Shown: positions 29,881 through 36,078 of the stretch, piece by piece
How the letters are laid out: the number at the start of each line of letters is the position of its first letter
Numbering within the stretch: the first letter of the stretch is position 1
From: Algimonas ampicilliniresistens
GTDB taxonomy: Bacteria; Pseudomonadota; Alphaproteobacteria; Caulobacterales; Maricaulaceae
Direction: 5' to 3'
Assembly: GCF_030159955.1 (NCBI RefSeq)
Contig: NZ_BSNK01000001.1
Span: forward strand, 248,001-312,000
DNA length: 64,000 nt
Notes under the pieces: generated by a model
What the model was told of the DNA's origin: nothing
Seen by the model: only the letters and a program-made list of their open reading frames with translations
Databases searched by the model: none
Translations under genes and position numbers: made by a program

Positions 29881-31677
29881 ATGCAGAAAATATTCGATGA
29901 ACTCCGTCGACGGAACATCTTCCGCGTTGCTGGGGTCTATGGGGCGTCCAGCTGGCTGATTATTCAGCTTGGCATTGCTTTCGAAACATCGTTGAACTTG
30001 CCGGGCTGGTTCGACCGATTGCTGACCACTTTGGTTTTGCTCGGTTTTCCAATCGCGCTCATCTTAGCTTGGGCGTTTGAGCTTACGCCAGAGGGCCTGA
30101 AACGCACTGAGATCGGAGGTCCATCGGAAGACGGATCACGCCGCGCCGGTCGTAAACTCGGCATTGCCCTGATTGCCCTGATCAGCGTGGTCATCGGCTT
30201 GATTACATGGCGCATCATCACCTCCGAAGTTCAACGACAGAATGATATGTCTTCAGCCGCTTCATCTGATGGATCGACTGCCACGTCAGTAACAGAGCAG
30301 TCTGCCATGGACGCGCTGCGAACGATCGCTGTGATGCCGTTTGAGAATCTGGCTGATGATGAGAGGTACGATTACATTTCAAGTGGTCTTTCATCGTCCA
30401 TCCGTGATGACTTGGCAGGTAACAGGTTACTACGTGTCGTGGCGCGGTCGTCATCTCAGGCTGTCGCCAATGAATCTCTGGGCGCACTGGAAATCGCGGA
30501 GCGTCTTAATGTTGCCAATGTCCTTGAAGGCCGTGTTGAAAAACGAGGTGAAAAGCTGCTGATTACCGTCAGCCTTGTCGACGCTCGTACTGGGTTCACC
30601 AGATGGGTCGAAACCCTGACGTATGACCCTGAAGCTCTGATCGACATTCGTAATAAGATTACGAGTGTCTGCGCCCAGACTTTGTCAGTGGATCAACGAT
30701 CGCAGGGTCGTGAGCCAGGTGATGCGACTGTCCCAGAGGCTTTCACGGAATACTTCAGGGGAACAACTCTCTTATATCAAGAAGCGACTCTAGAATCGCT
30801 TGAAAGCGCACGGCGTCACCTTGAAACAGCTGTTCAACTGGACCCTGGCTTTGCGGATGCTCATTCTTCGCTCGCCGGGGTCTATCTGATCCTCGGTGCG
30901 GTCAGTGCCGACAAGGGGCTTGCAGACGCCATGATCGATAAGTCTGAAGCCATGGCGCGAGAGGCGATTGCCTTGGCGCCCAGCGATGCAGACACACATG
31001 CGGTTTTAGGCGAAATTCTTATGAGTGGGCGGGTCGATATGGTCGCTGCAGCCGGCCCTTTCGACCGGGCTCAGGCGTTGGGGCTGTCATCGGGAGACGG
31101 ATTGTCGAGGCACGCCGTCTTCCTGTCAGCAACCGGGCGCCATGACGAGGCGATCGAGCAAGCCTATCGCGCTAAGACGCTCGATCCGTTGAGCGCCTCT
31201 GCATCTGAGACGCTAGGCTTGGCCTATTATGCAGATCGTCAGTTTGGTTCAGCCATCACAGCCTATCGTCTTGCTCTGTCGCAAAACCCTGAACGCTACA
31301 CGACACGGGCGCGTTTAGGACTGGCGCATATTTACTCAGGGTCCGTTGAGGACGGGTTGGACTGGTGTTCGAAAGAAGAAAACCTGATGGAACGTCTGCC
31401 CTGCGAGGCCGCAGCGGCCGTCAGGAAGGGAGAATCTGAGAGCGCTGAAAAGGCTTTAGGCGAACTCATTGAGGTGTTCGGCGACGCTGGCGCTTATCAG
31501 CAAGCTGAAATGCTGGCTGAAATGGGGCAAACAGAGGTAGCCATCGCCACTCTGCTAAAGGCGGAAAGCCTAGGTGACACAGGCCTAGCAATGGCCGGAT
31601 ATGATCCCGCGCTGGATAATTTGCGTGACGATGAGAGGTTTCAAGCATTGCTTGTGCGCCTCGGCCTATCGGATTAG
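29881..31677 (+). CDS. Membrane-anchored TPR protein with adenylate-cyclase-type N-terminus
   Basis: A 598-residue protein. The N-terminus FDELRRRNIFRVAGVYGASSWL plus two hydrophobic segments (about 20-38 and 43-66) and ELTPEGLKRTE is the module often found on class III cyclase-like and winged-helix TPR proteins. A further helix lies at about 93-110. A TolB-like domain follows (about 140-270, TIAVMPFENLADDERYDYISSGLSSSIRDDLA), then TPR repeats to the end. No cyclase catalytic residues are present, so it is probably a scaffold or sensor. Partners are unknown. Confidence 0.78.
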   Translation: MQKIFDELRRRNIFRVAGVYGASSWLIIQLGIAFETSLNLPGWFDRLLTTLVLLGFPIALILAWAFELTPEGLKRTEIGGPSEDGSRRAGRKLGIALIALISVVIGLITWRIITSEVQRQNDMSSAASSDGSTATSVTEQSAMDALRTIAVMPFENLADDERYDYISSGLSSSIRDDLAGNRLLRVVARSSSQAVANESLGALEIAERLNVANVLEGRVEKRGEKLLITVSLVDARTGFTRWVETLTYDPEALIDIRNKITSVCAQTLSVDQRSQGREPGDATVPEAFTEYFRGTTLLYQEATLESLESARRHLETAVQLDPGFADAHSSLAGVYLILGAVSADKGLADAMIDKSEAMAREAIALAPSDADTHAVLGEILMSGRVDMVAAAGPFDRAQALGLSSGDGLSRHAVFLSATGRHDEAIEQAYRAKTLDPLSASASETLGLAYYADRQFGSAITAYRLALSQNPERYTTRARLGLAHIYSGSVEDGLDWCSKEENLMERLPCEAAAAVRKGESESAEKALGELIEVFGDAGAYQQAEMLAEMGQTEVAIATLLKAESLGDTGLAMAGYDPALDNLRDDERFQALLVRLGLSD

Positions 31678-31932: not shown

Positions 31933-34422
31933 TTAAAACTCATTCGAAAAGCACAGGCTGGGGACATTATTTCCGGCCTGACCGCTGCCTATGATGATCG
32001 TGCCGTTCGGGCACACATGTTTTCGAATCCAATCGCGGTAATGAGCGACAGCGACGAATGTGCTTGGCTCGCCGTCATCTCGACATACGCCTGAGCCTCT
32101 GCTGACGATCCCAACGAGTTCGTACTGGTCGATGACCGGGCCGCCACTGTCCCCGCGGCAGGTCTTCCGCGACGGAGCAAAGGTGCAGAAGGCTTTCGGG
32201 TCAATGGCGCCGCTCTGCAGCACGGCGGACCGTGCGATGCAATCCTCCCAACTCGTAGGATAGAGCGACAAAGTGCGAAGCCGCGCGGAAGTCGGAGCAT
32301 CCGTCATTGACTGGATCTTGCCCCATCCAAAGGCTGCAACTTGCGTTGGAAAATCTGGATCTTCCGGTTTGTAAGACGACAGATTGATCACGCCAATGCG
32401 TGCGAGAGATAAGCTATCTGAATTCAGCGCGCTGCTAATATCTGAGTCTAATCCTAGCAAATGATGATAGATAGATTTGCCACCTGGAACTGACCAAAGG
32501 CGGATGCGTCCATCGCCTGACCATGTGAGTAGACGGTCGCCTTGAAGATCGGCACCATCGACTTTTTCACCATGATAGACCCGTGCAAGCGGATTTCCGG
32601 TCTCGACATCCCAGACTTCAGCTGTTCCAAAATCTGTCGTTACAACGATCCGTTCTGACGGCGTTGTTTGAACGCCTGAGATCGGAAGACTGTGGTTGAG
32701 TGTGTGTTTGAGCGCGCCTGACTTGGCGTTTCTGATCTCGCTGATCCCGTCTGAATTCCAAATGAGAAAGGCTCGGTCCTCGTCAATCAGTTGAACCTCT
32801 GAATCATAAAAGCCTGGTTTCGTCTTGAACGTCTTGCCGACCCGCTGACGACGGACATCCCGGATTTCGCCACGACCGTCGGAGCCAAGGGCGATCAATC
32901 TCCGACCCTTTTCATCCAAGGCCAGTTTCGGTCTATCGAGCTCAGTCAGTCCAGCATCGCGCGGTGACGTATCACCGAGTTGTTGAACGGACAGGCGGCC
33001 GGCTTCTTCGATCAGCGTTGCGCCGGAGTTCCGAAATACGGTTCTAATAGAAGTTGGCGAGACCATCATTTCGGTCCCGTTGGGTGCCGTGCGTAAAATG
33101 CGTTGATTTCGGTTCGATAAAGGAGGTGCCGACAGGGCGAGGTCGCGTTGCCTACGCTTAATGTTCCAGCGCTCCTGACGCCCATTTTTACCCGTGATTA
33201 GAACCTCTTTCCGATTGATGATTTTGATCTTTGCAGGATGGAAGCCAACTTTAAACTGGATTGGTTGAGAGCGTGTATTGATTTGATGGGCCGCGATTTT
33301 GCCACTGCCGTCGGCAATGACAAGCATGCCGGCTTGAGCGTCAAAATCTGCCGCAATGACAGGACCAGAATGTGTGACATCAAGGTTAGGCGCATTTGCG
33401 CGGCGAATGAGCCGCGCAGAGTTTTGCTTAGGTAGGATCAGCCAGCCCGGACCCGACCACGCAGAAAGCGAGTCCTCAATTTTACTGTCGGCCGCTACAA
33501 GCGATCGCGCACCCGTTTTAATATCAATGAACTCGACGCTACCGTCGGTTCTCAGCAGGCGGAGTGTCGACCCATCATGGATTGACGCGTCTTTTAAAGG
33601 AAGGCCGTTAGTGTCTCGCCAGCCTGATGGCGTTCGTGATCCAAAGGGGGCTGATAAGTCAAACTCCACACCGCTCAGGTCAAGCTGGAGTAGGGCGATA
33701 TCGTTCACACTTGTCCGCGTGCTGTAATCTTCGTGCAGGATCATTCGTTTTATCGGAATGACCGGAGCGTTGTCGGACGCGATATTGCCGACATCCAAGC
33801 GCAGACCATAATGTGCGGGATCGTCGGTTTGAAAGCAGTGTGCTGCCGTCAAAACCCAATCGCGTGCGATCAATGACCCGCCGCAAATGTGACGTTTCTC
33901 CCATAGATCGAGATGAGACAATTGTTGAGAAAACTCGCGCGTTCCGGTGATCAGATTGGAAAAGACGAGCTGGACTTGGAACGGGGCAGCGTGACGCGGA
34001 ATTTCGACCGCGTTGAATGAATACTCCGAACTCCTTCCAAAGCATATGTCGTGATAATAGGAGTCGTATTCCTCTTCGGACGGGTTTGGATTGTCGCATT
34101 TTCCATCTTCGATAGCTTGAGCCTTCAGGGCTTCTCGTGCCTCGAACTGGCGCTGCTGAAACTCAGCGTCTCTATCGGCCCGGGCTTGCGTTCTAAATGC
34201 GGGATCCGCGATGGGCGTGATATCTTCTCTAGATTCTAGAGCGGCCCGAATAGCGGAGGGAAGATTCCCTTGATCTTGGGCGAAAGCGGAAATCGGTCCG
34301 ACTAGGGAAATTGCGACTGTTACGACCGTGACTGCAGCCATGCGGCCTGTCTTGCCGGGTGGACGCGATTTCTTTTGCGCAGTGAATATGTTGAAGACTG
34401 TCGGCACTCGAAAATAATGCAT
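31933..34422 (-). CDS. Secreted trypsin-like serine protease interrupted by a WD40-like propeller
   Basis: An 829-residue protein with a signal sequence (hydrophobic core about 28-48, cleavage near AFAQ). The first half of a chymotrypsin fold gives HICGGSLIARDWVLTAAHC (H195) and VNDIALLQL (D241). Beta-propeller-like repeats then run from about residue 275 to 660, clearest at AEVWDVETGNPLA and TWSGDGRIRLWSVPGG. The second half of the protease follows: VAAFGWGKIQ (about 695), FCTFAPSRKTCRGDSGGPV (S759) and YRDWIRKHVC. D241 and S759 are 518 residues apart; in a normal trypsin the gap is near 90. The whole triad is intact, so this looks like an insertion in the interdomain linker. It is probably periplasmic or exported. 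Confidence 0.85.
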   Translation of the reverse strand: MHYFRVPTVFNIFTAQKKSRPPGKTGRMAAVTVVTVAISLVGPISAFAQDQGNLPSAIRAALESREDITPIADPAFRTQARADRDAEFQQRQFEAREALKAQAIEDGKCDNPNPSEEEYDSYYHDICFGRSSEYSFNAVEIPRHAAPFQVQLVFSNLITGTREFSQQLSHLDLWEKRHICGGSLIARDWVLTAAHCFQTDDPAHYGLRLDVGNIASDNAPVIPIKRMILHEDYSTRTSVNDIALLQLDLSGVEFDLSAPFGSRTPSGWRDTNGLPLKDASIHDGSTLRLLRTDGSVEFIDIKTGARSLVAADSKIEDSLSAWSGPGWLILPKQNSARLIRRANAPNLDVTHSGPVIAADFDAQAGMLVIADGSGKIAAHQINTRSQPIQFKVGFHPAKIKIINRKEVLITGKNGRQERWNIKRRQRDLALSAPPLSNRNQRILRTAPNGTEMMVSPTSIRTVFRNSGATLIEEAGRLSVQQLGDTSPRDAGLTELDRPKLALDEKGRRLIALGSDGRGEIRDVRRQRVGKTFKTKPGFYDSEVQLIDEDRAFLIWNSDGISEIRNAKSGALKHTLNHSLPISGVQTTPSERIVVTTDFGTAEVWDVETGNPLARVYHGEKVDGADLQGDRLLTWSGDGRIRLWSVPGGKSIYHHLLGLDSDISSALNSDSLSLARIGVINLSSYKPEDPDFPTQVAAFGWGKIQSMTDAPTSARLRTLSLYPTSWEDCIARSAVLQSGAIDPKAFCTFAPSRKTCRGDSGGPVIDQYELVGIVSRGSGVCRDDGEPSTFVAVAHYRDWIRKHVCPNGTIIIGSGQAGNNVPSLCFSNEF

Positions 34423-34567: not shown

Positions 34568-35161
34568 TTAGCTCGAATCTTTAGGTCCCAACGTCGACAC
34601 ATAGACGGGGCCGAACTCGACGATCTGAGCTGCACGGCCGAGTTGGTACTCGACCTTTAGTGAGCCGGCCGGATAATCCGCGTCCGCAACGCCGGTGACA
34701 TTCATCAGCTTCCATTCCGTTTCAGGCAGGATGTCTTCGGACAGGATGTAGTCGTAGGGTTCTTCATTTCGCCCGACAAACATGCCTACATTTGCGGTGT
34801 CTTTACCCGCGGCAGCCTTCTTGGTCCGAGCCCAGAAAAAAACCTGAATTTCCTCACCTTTGGAAACAGGGTTGGCAATCTCAACACCCAGACTTGAATC
34901 CCACGCACGCTGCTGCTTCTTTTTGATACGAGCGCTGATGGCTTTGCCAGATGTGAGGGCTTCAGCGTCGACGACTTTCGTGCGGATGTCATTGCCTTTG
35001 GCTTCCCATTCTAGATCAAACGGGTTGTGTAAGAGCTCACCGGGTAAGGCCGCGTCGAGCGCCTGTAGTGCGGCGTCGGCGTCTTGTGCGCTGGCTGGGA
35101 GGCTTGCAAAAAAAGCTGTGCCAACCAGAAGGCTCATTAGAGCGGATCGCGTGTTTCTCAT
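34568..35161 (-). CDS. Secreted jelly-roll (carbohydrate-binding-like) protein
   Basis: A 197-residue protein with a signal peptide (MRNTRSALMSLLVGTAFFASLPASAQ). The mature part is beta-rich; ISARIKKKQQRAWDSSLGVEIANPVSKGEEIQVFFWAR and the late AQIVEFGPVYVSTLG resemble CBM4/9-type galactose-binding folds seen attached to glycosidases. It has no enzyme domain. The ATG at 35161 is used; an upstream in-frame ATG at 35200 lacks a signal-peptide context. It probably binds a glycan or acts as a cell-surface partner of the neighbouring GH3 locus; that role is inference. Confidence 0.6.
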   Translation of the reverse strand: MRNTRSALMSLLVGTAFFASLPASAQDADAALQALDAALPGELLHNPFDLEWEAKGNDIRTKVVDAEALTSGKAISARIKKKQQRAWDSSLGVEIANPVSKGEEIQVFFWARTKKAAAGKDTANVGMFVGRNEEPYDYILSEDILPETEWKLMNVTGVADADYPAGSLKVEYQLGRAAQIVEFGPVYVSTLGPKDSS

Positions 35162-35248
35162 GTCATCTTTCTCCCCAGAAGATTTTGTTATTAAGAGCAA
35201 GTTCTATTTCTCACCTGAACCGTCGCTGAAAGCGGGGCTCATGGTTAG

Positions 35249-36028
35249 CTAGTTGGATTGAGCTAAGCTGGTGATTTGCTGCGCTAATGTGAGGGTTGCT
35301 TCCCGAATGTCTGCTGCGTCTTTGCAGGAGCGTTTTTCACATTTTCGACGGAGCTTATTGAGTTTTTCGAGGTGATCGGCGGCCTTCTCAAAATCTCGCT
35401 CTTTTAGATAGAGTAAGCCCAGACGCATGCGGGCGTCATAGTTTTTTTCGTCATGATGAAGGGATGTTTTGAGAGAGTCTTTTGCCTCGTCATATTTGCC
35501 GAGCTGTATCTCGGACAGTCCCGTCATATAGCTCGCAAAAGCAAAATCTTCATAGGTCACTTTGCCATCTGTGAGAACAGTGCGGCCTTCGGAGCGCCGA
35601 TTGATGAAGTTGGACGTTAGTCCGGGGTTGGTGGAAAGAGCGCTGCCAGACGATAGGACGGGAGCCCCACCGCTTCGCGAATTCACACTTGAACTTAGAT
35701 TAGCACCCGCATCTGCTGTCTGTGCGGCGCGGTCGATGCTGATTTCTGCATCCCGTGCGGAGTTCTCTTTCGCGCTTTCAAACCGTCTCAGACTTTTGAA
35801 CTCGTTTTCGAATTCGATTTCCGCTGTCTCGAAGTCACCGCGGAAGAACGCGTCCATGCCTTCATGTTCGCCCAATATCTGGGTGCCGAAAGCGATCACT
35901 TCATCCTCATTAGTGGTCTCGGTCTCTGGAGCTGGATCGGCCGTTTGTGCAAAGACGGATCCGACCGTCAGTAAGGCGACCAAGCTGGATATTAAAAAGA
36001 TCCGACAGCGCGATACGATAATTTGCAT
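35249..36028 (-). CDS. Secreted TPR protein
   Basis: A 259-residue protein with an N-terminal signal (hydrophobic stretch LISSLVALLTVGSVFAQ). Two or three TPR-like repeats lie at about residues 160-235 (FAFASYMTGLSEIQLGKYDEAKDSL, YDARMRLGLLYLKERDFEKAADHLEKL). The start ATG at 36028 is preferred to an upstream one at 36064. It is divergent from the GH3 gene, with a LacI-type operator in between, and in line with the jelly-roll gene, so a periplasmic adaptor for the glycan locus is possible. Function unknown. Confidence 0.72.
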   Translation of the reverse strand: MQIIVSRCRIFLISSLVALLTVGSVFAQTADPAPETETTNEDEVIAFGTQILGEHEGMDAFFRGDFETAEIEFENEFKSLRRFESAKENSARDAEISIDRAAQTADAGANLSSSVNSRSGGAPVLSSGSALSTNPGLTSNFINRRSEGRTVLTDGKVTYEDFAFASYMTGLSEIQLGKYDEAKDSLKTSLHHDEKNYDARMRLGLLYLKERDFEKAADHLEKLNKLRRKCEKRSCKDAADIREATLTLAQQITSLAQSN

Positions 36029-36078
36029 ATTCTGATGCTTCCAAATTGACGTGGCCAAAATCATTACTTACGCATAGT

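Follow-up and report, generated by a model that had tools for sequence, protein, structure and literature searches.

Prolyl oligopeptidase and tricorn are propeller-gated peptidases, in which the propeller and the peptidase occupy one chain. In animal Toll pathways, a protease cascade operates on the outside and TIR on the inside. Excerpts of one paper describe trypsin, TIR, SLATT and propeller domains as recurring in predicted conflict systems, and predict that SLATT proteins are nucleotide-responsive pores (PMC7159879). Here, we describe a locus in a 64,000-nucleotide stretch of Algimonas ampicilliniresistens DNA (the whole stretch analysed is called the window). A trypsin-like protease gene in this region has a propeller inside the catalytic domain, and is convergent with a gene for a membrane protein. 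Among open-licence PMC papers, we found no account of a trypsin domain that contains a propeller, of a gene set combining a propeller-protease with TIR/TPR proteins or, in bacteria, of a topology with the protease outside and TIR inside.

Results

The window protease contains two complementary halves of a trypsin domain

The protease gene and its parts are listed below, by position in the window.

31933-34422, minus strand: 829-amino-acid S1 trypsin-like protease containing a WD40 propeller (single open frame; Pfam and phmmer)
34279-34341, minus strand: probable signal peptide (residues 28-48, ending AFA), with Met28 as the likely true start (predicted from sequence)
33673-34032, minus strand: first trypsin barrel, residues 131-250, with His195 and Asp241 (Pfam and PDB alignments)
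32458-33600, minus strand: inserted WD40 propeller, residues ~275-655, eight modelled blades around ~70 poorly modelled residues (model and Foldseek)
32008-32355, minus strand: second trypsin barrel, residues 690-805, with GWG at 699-701, Lys753 (c189) and Ser759 (c195) (Pfam and PDB alignments)

The Pfam Trypsin family (PF00089) matches the protein in two stretches (full-sequence E 6e-34), the best of which aligns residues 143-250 with model positions 9-97. In a genome-wide PF00089 search, model positions 23-97 and 103-220 were both found in this one frame. Hence, the two halves are complementary. Similarly, phmmer against PDB trypsins paired residues 176-248 with trypsin 21-91, and residues 692-805 with trypsin 113-222. 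About 420 residues separate the halves. A PF00089 search of ten genomes gave 68 matches; a distant pair of half-matches in one frame was confined to the propeller-protease family. The remaining matches were contiguous, apart from one G246 gene, which a gap of about 70 bases interrupts (genomes and loci are given by our G and L numbers).

The earlier note on this DNA placed the catalytic residues at His195, Asp241 and Ser759, and our counted positions agree; a recount from Asp to Ser again gave 518 residues. The triad, the GWG strand and the disulfide-type cysteines, which the note had described as retained, were all located. The cysteines, with positions taken from the alignments, are 180/196, 728/746 and 755/780. 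These correspond to the disulfide pairs c42-58, c168-182 and c191-220 of trypsin. The first barrel is 52% identical to its G046 counterpart. Hydropathy marks a hydrophobic segment at residues 29-47, and the protein is probably exported.

A WD40 propeller occupies the interdomain linker

By itself, the insert of the window protease has a weak WD40 signal (best Pfam E 3e-4). The same region of the G033 relative is strongly WD40 (THOC3, E 1.4e-20; WDR5, E 7.8e-20). In a model of the window protein (pLDDT 52.6, pTM 0.38), the middle region has 32 strands, which can be grouped, in the model, as eight four-strand blades. Foldseek returned the eight-bladed WD40 design Tako8 first (TM-score by target ~0.7), and WD40 propellers lead the PDB matches. 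A model of the G033 protein (pLDDT 49.4, pTM 0.40) likewise matches WD40 proteins. The blades have four strands, lie ~40 residues apart and carry WD40 sequence, this last being weak in the window copy alone. Together, the modelled blades, the Tako8 and other WD40 structure matches and the strong G033 match uphold the proposal, made in the earlier note, of a WD40-like propeller between the barrels.

A blade profile trained on the inserts picks up ordinary WD40 proteins of other Alphaproteobacteria, one of them with 15 regular blades. Note that the seeds were taken from the inserts, whose own scores are therefore circular. Because the profile recovers ordinary WD40 proteins, we rejected the idea of a propeller by resemblance only. 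An unstructured or unrelated linker was likewise ruled out, by the WD40 model matches and the blade profile.

Alignment against trypsin leaves residues 92-112 of the trypsin chain unaligned, and places the insertion in the interdomain linker, by eye near c112-117. This site is a flank near thrombin exosite I, a docking area for cofactors and substrates, and is not known to lie above the cleft. Across nine proteins, the insert is 272 to 523 residues long. Mean pairwise identity is 21% for the insert versus 37 and 43% for the barrels; hence, the insert diverges faster. In the models of both the window and G033 proteins, for which each alignment had only 5 sequences, the second barrel block has pLDDT 25-62, mostly ~30. 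That the two halves make one trypsin fold is suggested by their sequences.

Layout and catalytic residues are kept among relatives

The inserted form is present in eleven genomes: that of the window, G046, G044, G033, G041, G165, G246, G406, G258, G1093 and G1091. Hence, we rejected assembly artefact or chance as its origin. Spacing between the catalytic Asp and GWG is 308-559 residues in nine inserted proteins; it is 397 in G1093 and 560 in G1091, these two being counted one residue further than the other nine. A twelfth genome, G145, encodes a 371-amino-acid uninserted relative (G145a), without a propeller, where the spacing is 63 and the same type of partner gene lies alongside. The layout in eleven genomes, and the natural uninserted form, agree with the earlier view that an S1 protease, complete in other respects, carries an insertion in its linker. 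The homologue search and blade count that the earlier note had proposed thus gave eleven genomes with the layout, and eight modelled blades in the window insert.

Directly after G145a is a second trypsin-like gene (G145b; L037:9518-10630), in which Asn replaces the catalytic Asp and which has GDSGAP. Hence, in G145, an intact and a degenerate protease are adjacent, next to one TIR-TPR gene.

Both GDSGGP and the His-Asp-Ser triad are invariant in an alignment of nine inserted members, as are the residues numbered Gly193, Asp194 and Ser214. The triad and Lys189 are kept in ten proteins (the nine inserted and G145a, leaving out the degenerate G145b) and in two further inserted proteins, from G1093 and G1091. 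In wild-type bovine trypsin, position 189 is Asp. Here, c189 is Lys and not Asp in 10/10 proteins with GDSGGP (G145b, without GDSGGP, is left out) and in 2/2 later ones. The best PDB match of the window protease, cationic trypsin chain 4niv, likewise has Lys at the aligned residue. With Lys at position 189, cleavage after Arg or Lys would be unlikely; an acidic P1 residue is possible. No [IV][VI]GG motif occurs within the first 200 residues of 11/11 proteins (nine inserted and two from G145). Hence, there is no clear sign of the classical zymogen switch. IVGG is also absent from some S1 members, HtrA among them, so its lack is compatible with S1 membership.

In a tree of the barrels, the G145 pair clusters with the inserted forms, apart from five plain trypsins (support 89/93). 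The window protease clusters with that of G046 (86/83). Note that rows G406_C62a and G406_C62b are one protein entered twice, so the plain trypsins number five distinct proteins, and that three long branches are unreliable. A single gain of the insert would be allowed by this tree, the alternative being loss in G145 (p-AU 0.49).

The protease is patchily distributed. Matches were found in 5/138 genomes of the window's family (own genome included where searched) and in 9/399 of the order, the uninserted G145 among them. In the family of G246, 7/105 genomes match, G402 and G349 in the repeats only; in that of G165, 2/62 match, one being the uninserted G145. At E 1e-30, genomes of the class (385) and phylum (299) gave the window's own genome only (1/385 and 1/299). 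A single-protein search of genome contigs found no relative of the window protease. With a nine-row profile at class level, 23 genomes besides the window's matched. In the 11 of these read further, trypsin halves and blades were combined in 0/11; L106 has both halves without blades, and ten have blades without halves.

Pieces of a second inserted-protease copy in G033 lie at two contig ends (L016 and L017, contigs C159 and C15), and are perhaps one orphan gene. No partner is visible beside the pieces of this contig-broken copy; a MurA-like gene is next to the C-terminal piece. In G406 (L035:6711-8267) and G1093 (L133:10463-12019), a plain trypsin-like gene is divergent beside the inserted protease.

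Searches of phage and plasmid records with the window protein gave no match, and viral contigs yielded no confirmed relative. With the G033 protein, 69 plasmid records matched, and in none did the match extend over 80% of the protein in one place; WD40, TIR, NACHT, trypsin and caspase proteins are among the listed plasmid matches. With no phage or plasmid match for the window protein, and partial plasmid matches for that of G033, spread by plasmid or phage was rejected.

A membrane protein gene is paired with the protease

The partner gene is convergent with the protease gene.

29881-31677, plus strand: convergent partner, a 598-amino-acid membrane protein, TolB_N-like and TPR in residues 147-598 (homology)
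29881-30090, plus strand: N-terminal membrane module of the partner, where relatives carry TIR (hydropathy; no TIR Glu motif)
30163-30219, plus strand: transmembrane anchor of the partner, residues 95-113, with Arg/Lys before it (hydropathy; topology by the positive-inside rule)

A homologue of the partner (residues 147-598, 33-53% identity) lies beside the protease in 9/10 loci searched with the window neighbours. The sole miss is L016, the contig-cut G033 paralogue. Two of two later loci (G1093 and G1091) also have the partner, making 11/11 full-length loci outside the window. For example, the window partner is 53% identical, over 453 amino acids, to the TIR-TPR partner of G046. In G1093, transposase-like ORFs lie between the TIR partner and the protease (L133:7084-8071). 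Convergent pairs of two partner-type genes, side by side, occur in G165 (L049:6340-10547) and G145 (L057:7584-11812).

All 10/10 relatives of the partner with the N-terminus present carry TIR with the motif SHWVxDEA; the G406 gene is cut by a contig end. The conserved Glu of this motif is presumably the NADase Glu. The window partner has no TIR domain, and its first 146 residues contain hydrophobic membrane segments. Within the N-terminal module, segment 47-65 exceeds the hydropathy threshold, and a helix near 17-36 is apparent by eye only. The change from TIR to membrane module most likely arose on the window's line, since TIR is present in both of its congeners, G044 and G046, and the window protease clusters with that of G046.

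In 9/10 partners, the anchor is over the hydropathy threshold with Arg/Lys before it, which would put the TPR part outside the inner membrane. An N-terminal segment exceeds the threshold in 5/10 proteases (G145b left out), and the other five have export signals by eye. From the export-type N-terminal segment, the cysteines at disulfide positions and the partner anchor after basic residues, we infer that the protease and the TolB_N/TPR region are periplasmic.

Barrels and partner diverge together (Mantel r 0.73, ten pairs, a value reached by 0/5000 shuffles). For the four nearest relatives, barrel/partner identities to the window pair are 54/54, 43/42, 37/38 and 39/36%. Vertical inheritance of neighbours could equally produce this. 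In a reverse control, 8 of the 60 TIR matches in ten genomes lay beside the protease. For 23 of the other 52, the surrounding DNA, in twenty stretches, contained the propeller-protease in 0/20 cases and a SLATT-like neighbour in 3/20. One control stretch, L064, has a distant trypsin-type gene near the TIR gene, without a match to the half-domain profiles of the family. Many TIR proteins that do not have the protease as a neighbour also contain the TolB_N/TPR region.

SLATT-like and other neighbouring genes

In G044, G046, G033, G258 and G041 (contig-cut), the protease or its TIR partner has as a neighbour a gene for a conserved SLATT-like membrane protein. Matches of this family to SLATT/DUF4231 are weak, below the Pfam and NCBIfam cut-offs. 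In the window genome, nothing matched the SLATT-like family. Genes for SLATT-like and TIR-TPR proteins also occur head to head without the protease (L060:6352-9398 in G406, L062:6564-9454 in G246 and L063:6872-9611 in G258). In G045, a genome of the window's genus without a protease match, C2:597477-597701 holds a short SLATT-like match with two stop codons, perhaps a relic of the gene set.

Upstream of the window protease, on the same strand, are genes for a CBM_4_9-like protein and a TPR protein (34568-36064). No relatives of this pair were found in ten other loci searched; hence, we rejected it as probably not part of the module. Pfam identified no defence gene among seven window neighbours. 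PADLOC, run on four window proteins, gave weak matches to the protease alone (best E 0.0012). For the TIR partner of G046, PADLOC defence models matched in their TIR parts, with E down to 1e-8.

Discussion

A proposed role for the propeller-protease and its partner

The domain layout, its conservation, the gene-order pairing, the co-divergence and the difference in output are observed. We propose that they reflect a periplasmic protease and receptor module with an exchangeable cytoplasmic output, in which the propeller serves recognition or docking; we give this explanation an even chance of being right. Compartment, complex formation, signalling direction and ligand are the parts of it that we infer. 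An exported S1 protease, its catalytic domain interrupted at the linker by a WD40 propeller, would act with the convergent membrane protein, whose TolB_N/TPR region would share the periplasmic space. The propeller would be the recognition part, docking the protease on a substrate, the TPR partner or an envelope ligand and, via the linker, could shift the set of the two barrels. The partner would then relay periplasmic recognition, or cleavage, through the inner membrane. For most relatives, the output would be cytosolic TIR bearing the conserved Glu, in some cases accompanied by a SLATT-like membrane protein; in the window, a small membrane module would have been swapped in.

Other explanations must be considered. 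The propeller might instead be a gate over the active site, in the style of prolyl oligopeptidase or tricorn, restricting substrates to small or unfolded peptides. Gating is known from peptidases in which a propeller joins the catalytic domain in mid-chain, and with IVGG missing from 11/11 proteins other means of control may be needed. However, the linker site is a flank near thrombin exosite I and is not known to face the active site, the insert ranges from 272 to 523 residues in nine proteins, and the uninserted relative G145a exists. Gating is thus improbable; the site near the exosite-I flank, and fast divergence of the insert, lead us to favour recognition or docking. That the gene encodes a pseudo-protease, or is a chance fusion or assembly artefact, would fit the unusual primary pocket (Lys189) and the poorly resolved barrels of the models, but not the open frame, the intact triad and the same layout in eleven genomes. 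We consider this highly improbable. The protease could also be an ordinary housekeeping enzyme of the envelope, with the adjacent TIR/TPR gene an accident of vertical inheritance. Co-divergence by itself cannot tell function from shared ancestry, and G033 has an orphan paralogue. Yet the two genes stay together across three families of the order, where flanking genes differ by eye, and do so despite the transposase-like ORFs between them in G1093; furthermore, the window partner is retained despite having no TIR. We consider a housekeeping role improbable.

A narrower account is abortive infection against phage, where the periplasmic propeller-protease senses phage entry and the TIR and SLATT outputs kill or arrest the cell. 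Note that this is one use of the protease-receptor module favoured above, so the probabilities of the two overlap. TIR_2 and SLATT-like neighbours are as such a system would have, SHWVxDEA with the presumed NADase Glu is present in 10/10 TIR partners with the N-terminus present, and the TIR partner of G046 resembles PADLOC models in their TIR parts, with E as low as 1e-8. The propeller diverges rapidly, and presence is patchy: 5/138, 9/399 (one uninserted), 7/105 (two repeats-only) and 2/62 (one uninserted). According to excerpts of PMC7159879, the same domains recur in predicted conflict systems. Conversely, a Pfam scan of seven window neighbours gave no defence gene, the best PADLOC match of four window proteins has E 0.0012, and the window protein matches no phage or plasmid record. 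Moreover, the protease is kept though the window genome has no SLATT match and the partner no TIR. Taken as a whole, the anti-phage account is possible, though on the unlikely side. A defence role more broadly is plausible, given the domain stock and the match of the G046 TIR partner to PADLOC TIR parts.

Significance

A whole propeller within a trypsin domain, and a natural uninserted relative with the same partner type, provide a ready comparison. This bears on how S1 proteases might acquire recognition or control through an insertion, as opposed to domains added at the ends. If paired with a membrane-spanning TIR/TPR protein, the protease would lie outside and the TIR signal inside, a topology like that of animal Toll pathways. 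The propeller-protease and membrane receptor pair suggests sensing outside the inner membrane and, in the window, the output part differs while the sensing pair remains. More speculatively, the locus could be a transmembrane immune relay. An exported protease, with a fast-evolving and antigen-sensor-like propeller in its catalytic domain, would sense a periplasmic invader and cleave or bind the TPR receptor, switching on, across the inner membrane, the cytosolic TIR NADase and, where present, a SLATT pore. We regard this as unlikely, if worth stating; exchangeable outputs of the relay, as in the window, form part of the reading and are equally tentative.

Comparison with known systems

Compared with S1 trypsins (PF00089), the window protease has the same triad, Gly-Asp-Ser-Gly-Gly-Pro, GWG strand and cysteines at three disulfide positions. 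It differs in that ~420 residues separate the barrels, c189 is Lys where trypsin has Asp, and IVGG is absent. The Streptomyces coeruleorubidus plasmid protein WP_317928306.1 similarly has an annotated trypsin-like domain and WD40 blades in one chain. However, those blades are C-terminal (~787-1354 of a 1393-residue frame), and its trypsin domain is known by annotation, the half-domain profiles of the propeller-protease family giving no match. Alphaproteobacterial TIR-TPR membrane proteins share the TIR, anchor, TolB_N-like and TPR regions of the partner family, but only a subset are beside the propeller-protease, and the window partner has no TIR.

Predicted trypsin/TIR/SLATT conflict systems, as described in excerpts of PMC7159879, PMC8195603 and PMC10907252, draw on the same domain stock: trypsin-like peptidase, TIR, 2TM SLATT, propeller and TPR. 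In contrast to the systems in those excerpts, Pfam found no NTPase, vWA or adaptor core among seven window neighbours, and here the protease looks exported and the partner membrane-spanning. Finally, prolyl oligopeptidase and tricorn have a different catalytic fold from the S1 protease described here but, like it, link a propeller and a peptidase in a single chain.
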